Origin: Centroberyx gerrardi
Taxonomy: Eukaryota; Chordata; Actinopteri; Beryciformes; Berycidae
Length of the DNA stretch: 64,000 bases
Assembly (NCBI RefSeq): GCF_048128805.1
Contig: NC_136015.1
Location: 27,388,116 to 27,452,115, forward strand
Reading direction: 5' to 3'
A program made the translations under genes and the position numbers. This document shows positions 11,264 through 62,313 of this stretch, in pieces. How positions within the stretch are numbered: the stretch's first letter is position 1; each line of letters starts with the position of its first letter. The notes under the pieces are model-generated. The model had not been told where the DNA came from. It searched no databases and saw only the letters and a program-made list of their open reading frames with translations.

Positions 11264-12572
<1,309 letters not shown>

Positions 12573-17225: not shown

Positions 17226-18054
17226 AAGGAATTCATACATAGCCGTCAACTTCGCTATTTATATATTTGTCTATGGAACAAATTTCAAGCATTTAAGCAG
17301 AAGCCTTTAGATCAAAACGGCTTTAAGAGAATGAAAAACCAAACTTTGGACTGGTTGTGTATGTATGCAATACGTAATCCAGCCATTAGAGGCATGTAGG
17401 ACTTCTCACAAGACGAGTGTTTTTCACAACTGTTGTTCTTGTCTAGGTGTAAATTAACTGACAAAACAGACATCCAAATCCCTCCATTCTTCCAGTAGTT
17501 TGTCCCAAGAAAAATGTAGAATGTTCTGAGGAACTCCTGCGCCGCAACACAGTGTCCATTTTTTTGTACAGGACAGTCCCGCGCATTATTTTTCAATTCT
17601 ATCTTCAGTACTTGTTTGATGCAATTTCATGTCAACGCCGTGACCTTTAACAACACAAACATACAGATTTAGGTATGTGATCTGGGCATTTGGAATTAAA
17701 CGTGCTTCACATTAAATGTCTAACGTGTGGAGCACATTTGAATTTATAAACATTGTGTTGTTTTTTTTTGTAGATTGTTTTTGGGCCCTTTTTTCCTTTT
17801 TTCATTAGATAGACACTAGCAAAGAGAGACAAGAAAGGTTGGGAGAGAGGGGGGATGACTTTAACTGGATGCATAATATTTATCTGAATGATGCTACAAA
17901 TGTAACGATAGAAGGGTTGGCATGGATTCAAAAATAATTGCGTCTGGGGAGAGGACGAAGAAAATAGGTTAATAGGAATCAATCACTACAGTAAATGACC
18001 AATCTAGAGTCAAATGGGAGCAAATGGTCATGAACATAACGTTAATTTGCCTCG
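17226..18054. other. no gene seen; SINE-like remnant at 17755-17865
   Basis: A T-rich run followed by GAGAGACAAGAAAGGTTGG and GAGAGAGGGGGGATGAC resembles the degraded body of the SINE at 10612-10784 in the same orientation. The rest holds nothing I recognise. Confidence 0.3.
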
Positions 18055-18111
18055 TCAACATACAGAAATGTCTCGGTTGACTTTATGCTTACGTATAGCC
18101 GGATGACTTAC

Positions 18112-18363
18112 CTTTACTTTTGAGTGTTGGGTGTCATTCTGATGATCCACTGGTGAAGTAGAGGTGCAAGAGATTGGGATTGTTTCTGCCAGCTGTTCCT
18201 CTGACCCAGCAGCTGGGACTGGAGACAGGCTCTTGCCGGTCTTCCCCCCCTCTGTGGCCGCTGCACTATGTTTAAACCTCGCCTTCGCATTTACGTTTTC
18301 AAGAATAAAGGCTCCAACCGCACTTGGGCTATATTTTAGTCTGAGACTGTGACTTTGGTACAC
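18112..18363 (-). other. candidate minus-strand exon of unknown gene
   Basis: An open frame of about 84 codons, Ala/Ser/Thr-rich with no recognised domain, ends at a near-perfect donor (AAAGTAAAG|GTAAGT, 18112/18111) in phase 0. No convincing acceptor or partner exon was found downstream. It lies just beyond the end of the transposase gene, and could be a lost host exon or chance. Confidence 0.25.
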
Positions 18364-18729
18364 ACCACTCTTAGAAATCTATCGCCCAACGTGACGGGCG
18401 CTGCCATTACTTCTTGGTGAAGTCTGCTCATACGTTAGACGTTTTATCTCGCAAAAGGTTATGTTTGCTTTTATATGCTCTGTTGGTCTGCTCTGAGGTG
18501 CGGCTACGTGAGATTAACTGTCTCCATAAAGGCCATCTCAGCAGTTTAGATATGAAATTTACCTGCTTACCAAGGCTAAAATGTGAATCTGCAGGCTTGA
18601 TACAGCACACTAAGCAGATTAAAAAAAAAAATTGAGAGTAAGGGGATGACTGACTTTATACTGTACACCTGTGGGGGGGTGGGGGAGAGGAGGAGGAATA
18701 TGGGACATGGGATGGGGTTTGAACAGGAC

Positions 18730-20401
18730 CTATAGCTCTTTGCGAATTTTGTCACACTCAGCGGAGTGCCAGGACTTAAAACAGTTCCTGTCTCGTGTGA
18801 AGCAAAGCCTTTTACCGTTACACCCAGGTGCCAAGCAAGCTACTTTGGTCCTATTTTCTACCTTGAGTTTTCTGTAGCAAAGCCAGCAGTTCCTCGACAA
18901 GTCCTGCAGCTGAGGGACGTGAGCTGAATGGAACGACTCAGACGGAGGCGCCAGAGGCTTTAGACTATGCGATGGTAAACTTGCGTTGGCATCAATACCA
19001 CCCAGCTGACGAGCCAGGTTCTCCCTGAAATCTACCTGAGTATAGTACGAAAAACGATTCTCTTTCCCGGGCGCCGCGTGACACTGTTGCCACTCCTGAA
19101 ATAACAGGAAACTATTGACCACCGCAATATCGATGAAGTGGTAGAAAAGTGTTTTCCACCACTTCTGAGTTTTATGCTGGACTTCATAAGTTTTAATCAT
19201 ATCGTCAGACGTATCAAGTCCCCTCGTTTGTTTATGATAATCACCAATTACTTTGGGTTGGCGGATTACAGTTTTATCCCTGACACCATCACGTTTGACA
19301 AACCGTGTCACCTCAGTCGTGTCATTTGCTTTGTGGTAATTGGAGAGGTAAGTAACTGCACGCGTGTCCTTCCACTGTAAAGCCAGAACGTTGCCCGGCT
19401 CTATCCTACACCACCTCATGTCCCCACAATCAGCCACGCGCTCCCAACTTCTAATATCCTTGAATTCTACAGGGAAACTCTTTCTGTTTGTTCTACATGT
19501 CCCACAAGCATTAAGCCCGAGTTGTCGCAATGTAGCCACGAGTGCCGGAGATGTATAGAAACTGTCAAAAAACACGTTGTGGCCCTGATCTCTGAATGGC
19601 TGTACCAAGGTCTCTACTACTTTTGAGGCAAAGTCAGTAACATGGCCGTTAGAACTTCCCATGTCAATGTTGAAGTCTAGAGTATACCCCGCGTCTGACG
19701 TTACAATAACCCATAATTTAAAACCCCAACGAGCTGGCTTGCTTTTCACATAATCCATGAACCCTGAACGGCCCTTTGATTTTACCATGCGCTCATCTAT
19801 GGCTAGATTTTGATTTGGCTGAAATAGCTCAGTGCTCTTTTGTTTGAGGTGATCCAAAAGAAAACGAAGCTTCACAAGACGGTCCTGGTTATCCTCTGAG
19901 GAAGGGTCTACAATATGCAAAGCTGCCAGCAGAGATTTGAAACGATTTCGGGACATAAACATCTTCGACCAGGAACCCTGAAGCGGCTTTGTTCCCCAGT
20001 AACGCTTAATGTCAGGAAGATGGGTGAATCCCATGTAAATGAGAAGCCCCATGAACCTGTAAAACTCAGCTGCGGTCATCTCATCCCAACCACCATCACG
20101 GTTGGCGTATGACGGGCAGTTTAACACGAGCTCCCACCCCTGTTGGTTTGAAAAGCCGCAAATCTCAGAAACGATAGCCTGCGTAAAAAACAGCATGAAA
20201 AAATCTATTTCACGTAACACGGTATCGGCAGTCGACTGGACTGCACGACGCACGCTACCTAAATCTATACCAAGTGGGCGGCGGGGAGTAAACGGCAGAG
20301 GTTTCGGTGCCTGTACATCCTGCTCATCATACGAAGGGAAGGGGGAAGAGTCCGCAAAGCGCTTACGCTTTTTAGCTGGCACAGGACCTGCAGTGGAAGG
20401 G
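18730..20401 (-). CDS. piggyBac-type transposase domain, last exon of unit C
   Basis: The frame is open for 561 codons from an internal ATG at 20415. With the acceptor GGTCAG|CCCTTCC (exon start 20401) it is entered in phase 2, and a consensus branch site TACTAAC lies at 20436-20430. A basic KKRKR stretch, a likely nuclear signal, is near the start. Residues 65-430 form a piggyBac-like RNase H-fold core with aspartates in AIDERM (207), FFDSFYTS (284) and GLDTSDD (401/404), so the catalytic set is complete. A cysteine-rich domain with CxxC pairs closes the protein (510-553). Known members cut and paste at TTAA or have been domesticated. I found no terminal inverted repeats and no TTAA pair around it, which favours a captured gene over a mobile copy. 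Confidence 0.85.
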
Positions 20402-20513
20402 CTGACCATGGCCAAAATAATGACACTAAGTTAGTACTGATGTGAATAATTAATGACATAAAATATCAATACAATATTACACCAACAGCATAACAATAAT
20501 CATACACACGTAC

Positions 20514-20712
20514 CCCAGTGATGTTGTCCCTGGCTGAGGAACAGGGTCCATCTCCACCTCTCCCTCCTCTTCCTCCTCCTCGTCCTCCTGCTGCTCATCG
20601 ATGAGTTGAGCCTGTCTGAGCTCTGCATTGAGCTGGTCTTCTTCCTCCATGTCCATTCCTCCATGGTCCTCAACAGTCTGCTCTACAAAATGCCTCAGAT
20701 CAGCATCCGGCT
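20514..20712 (-). CDS. acidic exon upstream of the transposase exon (unit C)
   Basis: The minus-strand exon is bounded by an acceptor (TATTGTAG|AGCCGG, 20713) and a donor (CTGGG|GTACGTG, 20513). It encodes EPDADLRHFVEQTVEDHG followed by a long Glu/Asp run ending PQPGTTSLG. Length is 199 nt, entering in phase 1 and leaving in phase 2, which fits the transposase exon 112 bp away. It has no start codon before its first conserved residues, so it needs an upstream exon in phase 1. The nearest donor in phase 1 is the finger-less exon at 21905. Confidence 0.6.
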
Positions 20713-20880
20713 CTACAATACAATACACGCAGTACATATAAATACATGTCTCACAGTATCCATTTTGACTCAACACTCATTAAACGTATTTAGCCAGACT
20801 TTTGTTTGTTTAATTTTCAAATATTGTCTGTAGCCACATAAGCAAAATTTATCATCAAGGTAAAAAGTAGGCTACCAAGT

Positions 20881-20990
20881 AGGGCTGGACCCGAATATTC
20901 GACTATTCGAATATTCGTTCGTTGGGTAGGTATTCGGTTTTCAATTTTGGGATTCGGATACTGTTTTTTTTAATGTAATTTTATATGTAA
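20881..20990. mobile_element. hAT-like terminal fragment
   Basis: Begins GTAGGGCTGGACCCGAATAT and repeats ATTCGAATATTCG. Such GGGCTGG...CGAATATTCG ends are typical of fish hAT miniature elements. It is interrupted by LTR sequence at about 21000. Confidence 0.4.
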
Positions 20991-20999
20991 TGATCGCTG

Positions 21000-21690
21000 C
21001 TTGGGTGTCTATATAGTGACGTCACACTTCCGCTCTTGTGGAGTCAGAGTTTACTTTTGTATGGGGAAGTCGCTTGTCTGAGCCGTTGTCTCTAACTTTA
21101 TGTTATAAGTCTCTTTTTGGCTGCTGAAACCTTGACCTATATCACAACAACGTCCGCCCTTAATAAAACTACAGCTGAAGTCTGAAGTTTTTCGTCTGGT
21201 GTTCATCTCTTCTTCTCTAACAACTCCCCGGAGATCATCCACATCTCTACAAACGGCGCCCGAACCGTGTCGTCGTCACCTCGGATTTAAGCTGCGGACG
21301 CTCTCTGAGTGAGGTCAGACCGTTGTTTGAGTTCAAGTGGATTCAGCGTGGTCGCCGTGGACCGCTATCTCCGCGCTATGACGGTGTCTCAGTGGATATT
21401 AACGGTGCTAAGCTACATTTTCCTCGGCCGCTAACTGAAGGAGCTACAAGACCGCTGGCTGGCCGGTTGCCGCTGAGTTTGCTCTCCCGTGTTGGAGCGT
21501 GTTGGAGCGTGTAGGAGCGACGGACCTGTGGACGCCACCGAGTATGTTTTCAGCTCTGCGTTTTTGTGAGGAGGAACTGTGACTATGTGTGAACTTTGTC
21601 GGGTGAACTGTTGCCCGTGTATGGAAAGCCAAGCAGTTTGAAGGTGCGTGACTCTTAACACGACTAGTCTGACTTTACCTTTAAGTTAAC
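21000..21690 (+). mobile_element. LTR and leader of an LTR retrotransposon
   Basis: The stretch has a TATA-like TATATAGTG and an AATAAA at about 21164. It ends as an LTR in TCTCTACA, followed after two bases by CGGCGCCCGAAC (21254-21265), which matches a lysine-tRNA primer-binding site except for its first base. About 420 bp of GC-rich leader follows, then homology is lost. No gag or pol is present. It lies in the proposed intron between the finger-less exon and the acidic exon. Confidence 0.55.
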
Positions 21691-21904
21691 TTTTATATCA
21701 CAGGAAAATCCCGCCTCCAACACCATGAACCAATCATATCTAATTCTGGTTTATTTTGCCAGTTTTCATGAAAAAATAATTATCATTGTATAACTTAAGC
21801 AATGAACCACTGGAATTTATATAAAAATTTTTGTATGAGCAGCCTGAAAAGTGTGAAAAGAGCTCAATGGAGTAAGTACAATGTAAAAAAAACCTTCTAC
21901 AAAC

Positions 21905-22519
21905 CTGCTTTGTTGATCTGGATCTCAGGCTTCAGAACATCTTCCAGCAGCCTGCGTTGGCGATCAATCTCTTCTTCGTACTCTGCTATCGTTCTTTCAA
22001 ACAGCCCAAATATCTCTTCAACAGCCGCAGTTAGTCGCTGGTTGACTGATGCTTGATTTTTCAGAGAATGACAGGAACTCGGTAACCTGAATTTGCAGCT
22101 GACTGAAAAACTTCCTTCCTGCCTTCCTTCAATTCTCTGTGTCGTCTTTGATTTCAGCGTATCTAAGCCAGGATCTAAGTTCCTGGCTGGTTCTGATACT
22201 CCACGGTCCTCTCCATCAGCTTCTGTTTTCATCTGTTCAGTTGAGCTGCTGGCTAGAGGCTCTGAGGACTGAGGTTTCTCTTCATCAGCTTCACTCTTCA
22301 CGGGGACAGGAGTGAACGGGAACTCTGTGATATCGGCCTCCTCCTTGAAGCCTCCTCCTCGAAGCTGCTCTCCCTCCTGAATGGTCCAGAGTTCCTCTGG
22401 TTCCTCTTTAATGTGTGGGGGCTCTGGGTCCTCCTGGTCCAGACTGGGGCTCCAGTCCTTCTGCTCAGGGGGAACCTCTTCTTTACAGACCAACAGCTGC
22501 TGGACGCCTGGAGGTATGA
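21905..22519 (-). CDS. chimeric finger-less exon 2 of unit C
   Basis: The exon starts after TATTTCAG at 22520 (phase 1). It first encodes the family acidic region (LLVCKEEVPPEQKDWSPSLD, IKEE, VKSE, MKTE). After NLDPG it switches, with no stop, through about 37 new residues into a second copy of the coiled-coil module: VNQRLTAAVEEIFGLFERT, EYEEE, and then IQINKA. It ends at the module's own donor (AAAGCAG|GTTTGT, 21905/21904). All zinc fingers are missing. The exon is 615 nt, phase 1 in and phase 1 out, so it can be spliced onward to the acidic exon at 20712. If unspliced, translation would stop two codons later. A deletion joining exon 2 of one unit to exon 1 of the next is the simplest origin. 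Confidence 0.75.
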
Positions 22520-24638
22520 CTGAAATACACACATACACACATTAAGGAAGAGCATAACTATACGTTAACCTGAGCCTGTTACCATTATTTCATAATGTTA
22601 ATGAGATCGATGATGCTTCCATTGCAGCATGGCTGTAGCCACATATGAGGACATAGCAAAATGAGGTGCATAGCAAATTGACATCTCATTTAAATCTAAA
22701 AAAAGTGTTAATCATAGCAATAACAAATTGGGCTACTCCTGTCATTACCTAAGTCAGGGGTATGCAACCATGTGCCGTGGAGGGCTGAGAATATGCAGGT
22801 TTTCAGTCCAACCACAGACTACAGCAGGTGATTCTGTTCTGGTCCTCTTAGTCATGGATAAATGAGTACAATTGGATTTAAAAAGCTAAAGAATGCCTCA
22901 ACTAAGACAATGTTATGTTTTTCTATGTCTATGCCAAAACCTGGTGTCTATAGAAGCATGAAATTAGAATAGAAGGAGTATGGGTTAATTAGGACGCAAT
23001 GACAAACCCAGACCGGCCACACTTAAAGCTGATTTAGGCCTATCGTTTGCTGACGAAGTGTCGCCTGTAGGCGTCTACGGTGGTGCGAGTATTTATACTT
23101 CTGTGTTGGTGGTTCTGCGTGTTAAGTACCAAAACACGAGATGGCAGTGGCGTGCTTTGTAAGCATGGACGTAATAACAAAAGAAGTAGTATTGATTACA
23201 TTCTCTGAAACTTTTCTTTTGGGATATTTCTCACCACAAATTTATGACATCTGGTAATCTTTATAATTCGGAGATGAGGTGTTGTACAAATTAATTTATT
23301 TGCCAACCTCCTCACCTCGTCTCTCTTGGATCTCCTCCATGTTGTCTTCACTATCGGCGGACTTCAACCAGATACAGGTAGGAGGAAATACCAAGCGGGC
23401 CAGTCTGAGTTCTTGCAGTCTTGCGTCGCCCCACGCACAGTTACATTTTTGGAGATGTGTAGGCAAGCTACAGAGACACCGCAAAGACCTACGGCGTAGC
23501 TACAGCGACACTGTGATGCAGAACTATAAATAAGCCTTAAGACACCACTTTGGCCTACGCCTCTTTTTGAGCCAGGAAAAACCCTGCAGCATCATATTAA
23601 ATTTGTCTACACCCATTCCATGCCCACAAAACGTCCAACATACTCAAGCGCATCGCTGCCAAGCACCGGGAGCGTTGTCAGTGGACATTCACTTTAATTG
23701 TAGGTTTTGACCGGGGCGTCACGGGACAGGAGGGAACGTCCACAAGTGTCCAAGTGTGCCGTGAAATTTTAAGACCGCCAGTGCCTTTTACTCATAGTCT
23801 AAGTTAGCTTCACAAAAGAGCCTCTGAGTTACTTTTCAATGCAACGTAATTAGGAATTTGCAGTGACGAAGATGAAAAACTGCATTGATGGAGAAGCAAA
23901 CAACCTCAGAACCAACCAGCCATCAGAGACACCTTTAAAATACTGTCATTTTGCTTAGTTAGCCTATTGTAACCTAGTAGGTGCAGTAGTGAAGTTGCAG
24001 ATAATTAAGTTCAGTCTGGGAGCAGCCAGCACCCTCTGATTCTTTTACCTTGACTTCATCACACTCTTTGTCATTGCAAATTGTTGCAGAACTGGAACTC
24101 TCTATTGTTTCTACAACTTAGTTTACACACCTGTTGGCTACACCCATCTGGTCCAAACGACTTCCCTGCTCCACTGTTCTCTGTGTAGCTTCTCAGACCC
24201 ACACTATGTCTTCAGTTGCACATATCAGTGGTATTTATACCGTTTTTGAAATAATAATTAGTTCTGAATTCACATCAAAATATTTGGCCAATCCTGCTTA
24301 TTGATCCTCCATAGAACTGTGTGCGTGTGTGTGTGTGATACATCTGTATACAATATAATGATAAAATGTGTTATTCAATGTAATTATGACTACATTTATA
24401 TTTAGGTGTGCCTTGAGATTCAGGCTTGACCTTTGGTGTGCTTTAGCCCGAAAATGTTTGAGCACCGAGCTGTGCCACGAGGGCCAAGAGTTTTCATTCC
24501 GACCAAAGAAACTGAATCCCCTCGGTCACCGTCGACCGGGTCCGATCAACTTTCGGTCTGTCTACGGCTTTGCAGATGCTCACAACAGAATACAACGTAG
24601 CATGAGAAATGTGAAAATAGCATTTAAATGTCACCAAC
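22520..24638 (-). other. intron 1 of unit C with transposon debris
   Basis: A 2119-bp GT-AG phase-1 intron. Its start keeps the family intron sequence (TTAATGAGATCGATGATGC). About 23040-23560 has opposed blocks (GTATTTATACTTCTG and ACTATAAATAAGCC, CTACGGCGTAGC) resembling a PIF/Harbinger-type miniature element. Stretches near 22760 and 24400-24500 (GTGTGCCTTGAGATTC, GGGCCAAGAG..TTTTCATTCCGACC) are diverged copies of one dispersed repeat also seen near 53040. Confidence 0.45.
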
Positions 24639-24816
24639 CTGCTCTGTGTAACCGCACTTCAGGATTTAAAACAGCGTCCAGCAGCTTCCGTTGTCGGTCG
24701 TTCTGCTCTTTTGAACGAGAAACTTCCTCCTCGTACTCTGCTAACAGCCCAAATATCTCCTCAGCAGCCGCGGTCAGTCGCTGCTTCACCAGCGCTCTCT
24801 CTTGGACTTCTGACAT
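24639..24816 (-). CDS. unit C exon 1, shortened coiled-coil module
   Basis: ATG at 24816; 59 codons plus one base; donor CAGAGCAG|GTTGGT at 24639/24638. It reads MSEVQERALVKQRLTAAAEE. Five residues present in the paralogues (FERTI) are deleted, so the heptad register of the coiled coil is shifted. Upstream in frame there is another ATG at 24876, but MSEV aligns with MSKV of the paralogues. It joins 22519 in phase 1. Confidence 0.75.
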
Positions 24817-26039: not shown

Positions 26040-28680
26040 GATTTTAAATGTGCAACTGAAATTGAATGCCCTGCAATAACATCAGTCCCCTGTCAATAAA
26101 TGTTATTGGTGTATACAGACTCCCCTCAGCTGACATGATGTTTTATGATCACTTTAGAAACCTGCTTAAGGAACTGGATACAAGTAAAGAGTGTATTGTT
26201 CTTGGTGAGTTTAATCTGACAAAACAATAAAAAAGAAGCTCAAAGAACTCATCTAACCCAACTCATAGATGGCCCTTCTAGGATAACAACCTCCTCAAAA
26301 ACCCAAATTGATTTAATTTTTAGTAACAAGCCTGAGAGAATTACAAAGTCTTTCAATCTGTTTACTGGGCTGTCAGATCATAACATGACCCGTATCTCCA
26401 GGAAACTAACCAAAAAAAAAGTTTGTTTACCATAAAGACAAACAGCAACATTCCTATAGAATACCAAAAAGAAGTATGCATAATTTTGAGGAAGAACTTA
26501 AACAAATTGATTGGATGCAGTTTCTATCTACTGAAAATCTAGAGACTTCATGCCAACTTCTTACAGACACAATAAATAGCATTTAATAAAAAAAAACTGC
26601 ATTGAAATCTGGTCTAAGACAAGACAGACTAGTTTTTAATGGTTTACAAAACAAAGTAGTACAAGAATTGAGGAAGGCCAAGGCACATTTATTTTTACTA
26701 AGATCATAAATGAAGCCAAAGGAAATAACAAAATGATATGGAGTCTTTCTTTGTCAGTTGGTTAATGGTTTCATTAACCAACTGACAAAGAAAGACTGTA
26801 GGTCCAGTGATAGAAAAGACTTAGAATTGGACGTGGAAACTTAACTCATGAGCCTGATGAAATCTCTGCTGCATTCAACAACTATTTTATTGACTCAGTA
26901 CAGAACCTGGCACATTGCTTTGGCACCAGAACTAAGGAGATATCTTTTCCTAATCCAGTTTACCCTGTTCTTAATATTATGGAAGTTTCTACAATCTACA
27001 AGTTTCTAAGTACTCTCAAAAACTCTAAAGCCAAAGACATTTATGGATGGGACTCTTTAAAAAAAAGAGGCTCTATTGCCACCTATTGCCCACCTTGTTA
27101 ATCTTTCCATAAATCAATCAACATTCCCAAATGCCTGGAAATCTGCGGTTGTGACACCCATTTACAAGGCTGGTGGACCAACAGATGTGGCAAACTATAG
27201 CATTCTGCCAATAGCTTCAAAGATCACAGAAAAAGTGGTAACAGAGCAACTCTGAACACAGGACATGTCTCACTTCAACCAAAGCAATTTGGTTTCAGAA
27301 AGCTGCAAATTGTTATCTCATAGAGCAAATTAAGTCAAAGCTGGACAGGGGTGGCGTTTTTTGGGGGGAATTTACGCAGGGCATTTGACACTGAATTATA
27401 ATGTCCTTCTGTCTAAGCTTTCACATTTTAATTTTTCTGAAAACACTATGAAATGGATGGAGTCCTATCTCACAACGAGAAGGCAATGCACACGGATTGG
27501 AACAAAGCTCTCTTCACCAGTCGACTGCTCCACAGGTGTGCCCCAGGGATCTGTCCTGGGCCCCTTGTGTTTTAGCTTATATGTTATGAAGTTCCTACTG
27601 TATGCCCTGATGTAATGACTCAAATGTATGCAGATAACACCATAATTTATGTGCATGCCAAGACAAGACAGCAGTTGGCACATACGTTAATGGCAGCAAT
27701 GTCTAGTATCTCTGACTGGCTCACTCAGTCCTGTCTCACATTATCAAGACTGCATGTATGTATTTTTCAAACAGGAGGAAGGATGGTCATCAGCCTGAAA
27801 TCTTTGTTAAGGGTGAAAAGCTCCAAATAGTCTCCGATTTTAAGTACCTTGGGATAATTATTGATTCACACCTAACCTTTGAAAAACAGGTGAGAAGAGT
27901 CATCTGTACAGACAAACTGAACCTTAGAAATTTTGAATTAATTAGGAATCAATTGTCAACAGATGCTGCCAAGTTGTAAATGCATTCTATGATTTTTCCA
28001 CATCTGTCATGTTGTGTTACCACTTGGTCCCAAGCAGCAAAAAACATTCTTAGGCTCAAAATATTGGATAAAAAGTCTGCAAGGTATCACCACTGTCATA
28101 TAATTACAAAGTATAACCTTTTGACCTTTGATAATTTTGTCTACCTTGCAAACTCCTGTTCAGTGTACAAAATTACCCATAATCCTGCTCCTCCCCTACG
28201 GACAGAGTTTGTTTCACTATGCCCAGATAACATTAGGCAGACAAGAGCATCTACCAGAGGCAACTGTGTAGTGCAGCACAGGTCCACTGGATTTGGCCGG
28301 TCAGCTTTCTCCATCAGAGCTACAAACCTTTGGAACACAATACCTAGCTCTATCAGACTGCTCTACCTTCACTAGTTTTAAATCACAATTGAAATCATGG
28401 GTGAAACAGAACCAATCATGTGACCATTAACCACTTAAATACATAGAGCATTTAATTCTATTTTTGTATGATATAACGTTTTTATTGTATAGTGCTTTCA
28501 GTTTTGTACACTCTTATGTTTGTTTACTATACCCTGTATGATTTTTAACATTTGATACTGTAATTTTTTGTAAATTTGCCTGCCCAGGGACTGCAGATGA
28601 AATTTAGCTATCTAGCTAACTCTGGGATAGTCAATGACTGTCCACTGTCCCGGTTAAATAAACAAATAATAATAATTAAA
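26040..28680 (+). mobile_element. degenerate LINE with endonuclease and reverse transcriptase
   Basis: In order: an APE-type endonuclease (VIGVYRLPSADMMFYDHF, IVLGEFNL, then IDLIFSN and GLSDHN), a connecting region, reverse-transcriptase blocks (CSTGVPQGSVLGPL; QMYADNTIIYVH; FKYLGIIIDSHLTF), a C-terminal part (NLWNTIPSSIR) and a 3' UTR ending in AAATAA repeats. Many frameshifts and stops are present, and YADD is changed to YADN, so it is dead. Domain order and motifs suggest the L2/CR1 group. It may have split a minus-strand LINE whose parts lie at 25870-26035 and 29000-29790. Confidence 0.8.
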
Positions 28681-41985: not shown

Positions 41986-42199
41986 AATAATATATTGTAG
42001 AATATGTTGAGTTAATCATGACAGTAATTCCATTTCCATATTAAAACAATATTCCTTTATTGATTGTAATTACTTGCAGGCTGCTAAATATATATATATA
42101 TATATATATGTATATTACATATATATACACATATATATACGTATATATATATATATATATACACATATATATATATATATACACATATATATATATACG

Positions 42200-42291
<92 letters not shown>

Positions 42292-42629
42292 TATATATAT
42301 ATATATTTTTTTTTTTTACAATGTATTATTGCAACGAACTTCACTGTAGATTATAGTTTTTAATTCTATCTAACTAATCACACTGTTCTGGTCAAATTCA
42401 TGTAGTTGATTATTCATGACAGATTTTGTACTTGCAGTGAGAAAATGAACAAACACTTTGTTTAGTAAAAGATGTGTATGAGCAGTATTCAGATCTGGCT
42501 GCATCCCGAACCACAACACTGACTAGAAGGGTTTGGGTTTCCTCCTGAATGATGGACTATCATGATGTGTCTCTAGTTTATTGTTCTGTTACTGCTGAAC
42601 AGTTCAGCTCAACCAGCAGCTCTGCAGCT
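41986..42629 (-). other. 3' flank of unit F with large (TA)n expansion
   Basis: Homologous to 35399-36194 behind unit E. The segment 42088-42306 is an almost pure TA/TACA tract absent from E, so it expanded after the duplication. Confidence 0.65.
42088..42306. repeat. (TA)n/(TATACA)n microsatellite
   Basis: About 220 bp of TA repeats with CA and CG interruptions. Open frames across it are artefacts. Confidence 0.95.
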
Positions 42630-47593: not shown

Positions 47594-54617
<7,024 letters not shown>

Positions 54618-61486: not shown

Positions 61487-61679
61487 ATGGCGCGCGTGCA
61501 GAAGCTGAGAGTGTTCGTCAACCAGCGGCTGCACGCGGCGGTCGAGGAGATTTTCGGGGTTTTTGAAAAGACGATAGCTAAGTACGAACAGGAAGCCGCG
61601 CTGTCCCAGGAGGTGATCGCTCGCCAGCACGCGCTGCTGTGCGCGGTGCTCAAACCTCAGATGCAGCTGCCGACAGTAG
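61487..61679 (+). CDS. zinc-finger unit H, exon 1 (coiled-coil module)
   Basis: The only unit of the family on the plus strand. ATG at 61487, 64 codons plus one base exactly as in A, B and D; donor ACAGTAG|GTTTGT. The protein (MARVQKLRVFVNQRLHAAVE, then EIFGVFEKTIAKYEQE and MQLPTV) is clearly the same module but more diverged than A-F. Exon 2 is not in the window. The 3' end of its intron is present up to the last base, so exon 2 should start a few tens of bases beyond position 64000. Confidence 0.75.
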
Positions 61680-62313
61680 GTTTGTAAAACTTAAAAGCTC
61701 CTTGACCGTTTACTCTTGCCATGTGTGTCTTTATTAAAAGTATTTAAAGAAAAGTTAGGTAAGGTTTGCTGTTGTTATTCTCTAACCCCCTCTCGTCTCC
61801 ACCGAGCAGCTGGACCTTCATATTTCTTTCCAAGTCACTTTGTTAGAGACCCGAGGACGCGCTGCTGTGCTTCAGACAGTGGAGTCCAGTGGAAAAACAC
61901 ACTGGTTCAGAGTTTGAAATAGCAGTGAAGATGCAGTGAGACTTCACGGTGTTTTTCTTTTGAAGACCTGAAGAAAATGTCATTAAAAAGGTTCTGCTCC
62001 CTCTGAAGGGACTCTGTAGACCTAAAGACCGCCTCAGAGTTCTCATCTTATTCAGTAAGACGTTTCTACAAATCAAGTTGTGGCGCAAACTGCTGCTTCA
62101 TCACCAGATGCAAATTTAAACAGCTGCTGTAATCCACCAAGCTGCTTTCTGACTGCTGCTGACGAAGCTGCATCCGGTCTGAGCGGATTTGGGCGAAGTC
62201 TTCACACCTCCTTTCATCTCATGCTACAATCATTTGTTGGAGTTGGTTTTGCAAACTAACTAACTGTCACCTGGATGAAATAATGAGATTTACAGAGAAT
62301 TTCTATGCGTTAA

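Follow-up and report, generated by a model that had tools for sequence, protein, structure and literature searches.

An intact piggyBac transposase gene in the zinc-finger-exon slot of a fish gene cluster: a possible spliced fusion

Captured transposases are known to have given rise to new vertebrate regulators, with most of the described cases coming from tetrapods. A zinc-finger gene cluster of the fish Centroberyx gerrardi, itself probably evolving against transposons, raises the question of whether such a capture has taken place inside the cluster. We analyzed a stretch of 64,000 nucleotides (nt), hereafter the window, from contig NC_136015.1 (C19, 27.39-27.45 Mb of 28.24 Mb; genome of 779 Mb in 278 contigs). 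A first-pass annotation, made from the letters of this DNA, had proposed that one unit of the cluster splices its host exons to a piggyBac transposase captured in place of zinc fingers. Our comparisons give good support for a piggyBac gene that is intact and probably domesticated in the slot of a zinc-finger exon; a spliced fusion, in which exon 2 would be joined to the native piggyBac acceptor to give an 887-residue protein, comes in our estimate slightly short of an even chance on sequence evidence.

The gene model consists of four minus-strand exons. Exon 1 (24639-24816) is a coiled-coil exon with an ATG and a phase-1 donor, of a type also found in paralogous units, and exon 2 (21905-22519), with a phase-1 acceptor and donor, combines an acidic part with a second coiled coil and is of a type normal for a class of three-exon genes. 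Exon 3 (20514-20712) is strongly acidic, and exon 4 (18730-20401) encodes the piggyBac transposase core with its three Asp and a Cys/His-rich end; between them lies a putative 112-nt GT-AG intron (20402-20513). We confirmed that all four frames are open with GT/AG borders, that the junction phases are 1/1, 1/1, and 2/2, that the total is 2664 nt (887 residues plus stop), and that a TACTAAC stands upstream of the last exon, within this intron. Pfam searches at E up to 1 found no SCAN or KRAB domain in exons 1-2, Rfam gave no match for the locus, and no relative was confirmed in the viral and prokaryote collections. A single-sequence structure prediction, with a mean predicted local distance difference test (pLDDT) score of 38.4, was set aside and left unused.

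What would normally follow exon 2 can be read from nine related units (A1-A9), which were picked among the matches listed for exon 2 with both exon-2 parts visible. Other members of the cluster share the combination of an acidic part and a second coiled coil, and in 9/9 fetched units a coiled-coil exon, an exon of the exon-2 type, and a zinc-finger exon succeed one another on one strand, with the zinc-finger exon 0.4-4.6 kb beyond exon 2. The transposase of the window is found on the same strand at this position. Pattern searches tagged the second coiled coil in six of the nine units (not in A4, A6, and A7, where the similarity was seen in other comparisons); the acidic part is shortened in A9, and exon 3 of A6 is without the acidic tag. 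Exon-1 donors are in phase 1 in all ten units, the window unit included, as are the exon-2 donors in the seven of ten units where they were located (A1, A2, A3, A5, A8, A9, and the window), and phase 1 is also what the exon-3 acceptors require in the four of nine units where they were clearly located (A5-A8), the site in A9 being doubtful. Exon 2 of the window is colinear with those of A1 and A2 with all net indels in frame, and exons 1 and 2 both remain open through in-frame net indels. The unit comparison shows a normal exon type, and the idea that exon 2 might be a broken two-gene chimera was dropped.

Two further observations concern the host exons. On the minus strand, 22053-21860 comprises the second coiled coil and 45 nt of the intron behind it and matches the exon-1 region of seven units at 94-95% identity and that of an eighth at 92%; the remaining exon 2 matches exon 2 of the same units at ~70-86%, and 22053-21860 is a likely gene-conversion tract. 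A further coiled-coil exon of this family lies on the plus strand (61487-61700), and cluster units thus occur in both orientations. The coiled coil was also considered as a FiNZ domain, which comprises 28 residues; this candidate was dropped because FiNZ is reported to be cyprinid-specific (PMC10547256).

Eight exon-3 proteins (A6 left out), searched at E up to 1, gave no match from 21899 down to 13051, with a strong match at 12.6-11.4 kb as the positive control. Because 9/9 units have a zinc-finger exon at this place and no relic is found here, we conclude that the transposase stands in its stead: the window unit lacks a zinc-finger exon, and the transposase occupies the slot on the same strand. 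The next zinc-finger exon on the strand (11388-12572), 9.3 kb from exon 2, is a rival splice partner and figures in an explanation that we consider unlikely, namely that there is no working gene but a recently disabled zinc-finger unit, which either ends at exon 2 at a polyadenylation (poly-A) signal at 21755 or reads on to 12572, beside a silent but open piggyBac relic. Splicing to 12572 is feasible in that this exon accepts a phase-1 donor, and the product would be 659 residues long and contain six HTGE finger linkers, although it already has a coiled-coil exon of its own at 12927-12735.

The occupant of the slot is a piggyBac transposase. Exon 4 matches DDE_Tnp_1_7 with 258.6 bits against a cut-off of 22.4 (Pfam), and the closest solved structure is that of piggyBat (PDB 9c0f; E 3e-38, residues 108-449). 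The three catalytic Asp noted earlier align with those of piggyBat and piggyBac; catalysis may persist. The Cys-rich end is apparent by eye, the final 60 residues containing seven Cys and one His, but zf-Tnp_2 scores 10.8 bits against a cut-off of 24. The earlier failure to see terminal repeats was reproduced: among 1400 TTAA pairs, the best TTAA-flanked inverted repeat reached 10/16 against control maxima of 9-12, so that none rose above control level. Known piggyBac end motifs include CCC or CACTA (PMC10813416), with which 0/11 TTAA sites at 20413-21905 and 0/9 at 17500-18733 begin. The best inverted pair (17/18; 17505-17522/25087-25104) was rejected, since it has no adjoining TTAA and its score was reached in 1/30 shuffles. 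Because recognizable ends were not found, the window copy is unlikely to move itself.

Searching the species' own genome with the transposase, which sets lower bounds on copy numbers, brought up three other long copies, C2, C16, and C1, with 73%, 72-78%, and 68% protein identity to that of the window, respectively. All three are broken by stops or frameshifts, leaving the window open reading frame (ORF) as the only intact one of the four; the frame of C1 carries three frameshifting deletions, against none in the window copy at a similar branch length. Among the matches listed, no other long copy exceeds 78% identity, and the next long relatives stand at 37-39%. Since C2, C16, and C1 are the nearest copies among these matches, the window transposase seems to form a single-copy lineage; the family as a whole is low-copy. 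More distant piggyBac frames without stops occur at L006 (C13, 608 residues) and L007 (C20, 647 residues), both in the range of 37-39% identity, and a fragment at C8 covers residues 17-64 at 75% identity.

These copies also reveal the origin of exon 3, which the first-pass annotation had taken for part of the host gene. In both C2 and C16, an acidic stretch immediately precedes the core and is contiguous with it (in C16, a single frame of 373 residues begins at a native Met, crosses the acidic part, and continues into the core), and an acidic, disordered N-terminus is reported to be characteristic of piggyBac proteins (PMC9499001); the exon is therefore the transposase's own, and a host exon is ruled out. 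At 37% Asp+Glu, it fits the piggyBac N-terminal region by composition as well as by contiguity in C2 and C16, and only 1/333 open 66-residue stretches is equally acidic, possibly exon 3 itself. The acidic stretch is not present in the DNA fetched around C1. In C16, the native Met is preceded by the acceptor-like TTGTATTGCAG, a site that the window copy retains as TTGTATTGTAG at the end of what is likely the native 5' flank of the transposon gene (20713-20790, minus strand), a homology that rests on gapped alignments with C2 and C16, the BLAST match beginning only at 20702. The native start region itself has been altered and lost, with a net shortening of 57 nt relative to C16 and 60 nt relative to C2, and the frame from the acceptor is retained. 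That the acidic exon needs a phase-1 donor upstream, as proposed earlier, agrees with this retained acceptor and with the phase-1 donors of exons 1 and 2 in the cluster. The putative intron at 20513-20402 is from 20487 on common to the window and C1, whereas C2 and C16 have contiguous coding sequence instead, for which reason it is probably older than the window insertion. At its position, C2 and C16 carry an Arg/Ser/Thr-rich coding repeat, pointing to an intron that was gained or lost within a single transposon family.

The transposase reading frame shows signs of constraint. Across the 518 codons aligned in all four long copies, the window lineage has accumulated 115 changes, 46 of them synonymous, 69 nonsynonymous, and none to a stop, with a branch ratio of nonsynonymous to synonymous substitution rates (dN/dS) of 0.41. 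Under a neutral expectation per change of 27.5% synonymous and 3.9% stop, the lack of stops (~4.5 expected) has a p of 0.010 and the synonymous excess a p of 0.006. The branch common to C2 and C16 has a dN/dS of 0.29, and their terminal branches have values of 1.10 and 0.79, respectively (window versus both together, p 0.03). For the host exons, where pairwise values carry constraint on the compared units as well, dN/dS is 0.21 for exon 1 against three window paralogues with identical counts, which is in effect one comparison, and 0.36-0.47 for exon 2 against four fetched units.

The reading that we favor is a spliced fusion. A pre-mRNA starting from 24816 would be spliced from the exon 2 donor at 21905 to the transposon's native acceptor at 20712, so that the insertion would act as an exon trap in which a native piggyBac acceptor meets the cluster's phase-1 donors. 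In the resulting protein, the two coiled coils and acidic parts would serve as interaction domains, and the DNA-binding parts of the transposase would stand in for the zinc fingers as the targeting module, with sites related to old piggyBac ends as the probable targets. Host and transposase exons are open and phase-compatible, and a candidate acceptor is present, as judged by rough weight-matrix splice scores. The capture originally proposed is partly supported, with evidence that the first-pass annotation did not have, namely the slot, the strand, the ORF intact while its three long siblings are broken, the retained acceptor, and no zinc-finger relic found; the acidic host exon and the proof from phases have fallen away. 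The wider proposal, that the cluster swapped one gene's zinc-finger exon for a piggyBac transposase and so placed its interaction exons on a transposase DNA-binding module, as a convergent counterpart of PGBD1 arising through a native exon-trap acceptor and phase-1 donors, we put forward more tentatively still.

A number of points weigh against this fusion, beginning with the phases. The frames exist and join in frame as annotated, but open linking exons of 60-320 nt with comparable splice scores and the right phases are common by chance. They turned up in 31% of the shuffled sequences (n = 300) and 46% of the real window stretches (n = 400), and the phase argument alone is consequently not above chance. 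Linking exons of at least 199 nt were rarer (1.3% of shuffles, 12.5% of real stretches), and the length of the acidic exon is thus somewhat unusual. Two phase-1 acceptors with similar scores, 20712 (1.97) and 20682 (2.11), could feed the acidic exon, and a stronger one at 20387 (8.55) would bypass it in frame, so that a phase-1 donor would be joined straight to the transposase. The locus was originally picked for its open frames, which biases any argument from ORFs, and exons 1-2 may be open merely through recent loss of the zinc-finger exon. The acidic part of exon 2 has pairwise dN/dS values of 0.34-0.65 against five window paralogues, and the 13 codons changed uniquely in the window unit (5 synonymous, 8 nonsynonymous) are near neutral. 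Furthermore, the dN/dS check suggested for the transposase, made here with sibling copies from the same genome, gave a similar result for the broken C1 (dN/dS 0.50; 36 synonymous, 65 nonsynonymous, and 0 stops among 101 changes) as for the window, and part of the constraint signal may therefore stem from life as a mobile element; part of the window branch may predate the insertion.

Other transcripts can also be read from the locus: one starting within the transposase at 20656, one ending near 21755, and one splicing to the zinc-finger exon at 12572. The first would correspond to a stand-alone piggyBac-derived gene of two native exons with its own or a borrowed promoter, to which the zinc-finger-gene exons contribute at most a 5' untranslated leader, a possibility that we rate as doubtful yet serious. 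The acidic exon had been described as having no start of its own, which overstates the case: in-frame ATGs are present at 20737, 20656, and 20650, with another at 20409 ahead of the core, although the family's native start region is lost here. Those at 20656, 20737, and, if unspliced, 20409 open frames of 605 (with stop), 632, and 560 codons, respectively, and Met 20656 is conserved inside both C2 and C16. The apparent constraint on the transposase ORF would suit such a gene; the lost start region would not, nor would the fact that exons 1-2 stay open in a unit without a zinc-finger exon of its own.

The case for no working gene finds its best sequence argument in the AATAAA at 21750-21755 (minus strand), which lies 150 nt after exon 2, a possible rival gene end followed by a stretch of 77% G/T, together with a stop codon that comes in frame no more than 8 nt beyond the donor at 21905. 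The broken sibling copies and the near-neutral changes in exon 2 point in the same direction; the intact frame of the window copy does not, given 0 stops in its 115 changes and no frameshift, where C1 has three.

Elsewhere in the window, two open stretches at 26220-27100 (plus strand) resemble endonuclease/reverse-transcriptase fragments of a long interspersed nuclear element (LINE), and long tandem repeats with a 5-bp/10-bp register and an AT-dinucleotide-rich tract occupy 47759-48320 and 42094-42340.

Among the open-access literature matches listed, we found no report of such a fusion between a fish zinc-finger gene and a transposase. Among the closest counterparts of the locus are the genes of its own cluster, which share the types of exons 1-2; the nine other fetched units end in zinc fingers, and the window unit does not. 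PiggyBat (PDB 9c0f), its closest solved relative, shares the aligned Asp and is an active mobile element (PMC11707139), whereas the window copy is without detectable ends. PGBD1 and PGBD2 are reported to combine upstream host exons with a single large 3' transposase exon (PMC2268245), and PGBD1 carries an N-terminal SCAN domain (PMC6015446). PGBD1 thus resembles the fusion predicted here in joining a piggyBac transposase to the kind of N-terminal interaction domain that zinc-finger proteins typically have, but our locus has neither SCAN nor KRAB and would draw on the coiled-coil/acidic exons of another cluster. In CSB-PGBD3, the exon trap consists of an acceptor that lies 7 nt upstream of the transposase Met, and, like our locus, it has a piggyBac ORF with an acceptor just upstream of the Met and in frame with a host exon (PMC2268245). 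PGBD3 is, however, an alternative 3' exon with visible TTAA and terminal repeats and a poly-A site ~130 nt on (PMC2268245), whereas our locus has no repeats that we could find, no AATAAA or ATTAAA between the transposase stop and 17070, although variants exist, such as TATAAA at 18660, and no last exon of the host's own. If the fusion is real, it would be a natural experiment for asking whether a zinc-finger array can give up its targeting module and take on the enzyme of a parasite that it may police. There would be a clear mechanical reason, in that an acceptor-like site by the start codon of this piggyBac family meets exon-1 donors that are in phase 1 in 10/10 units, and the capture route would work convergently inside a fish zinc-finger array, giving a fish counterpart of PGBD1 and CSB-PGBD3.

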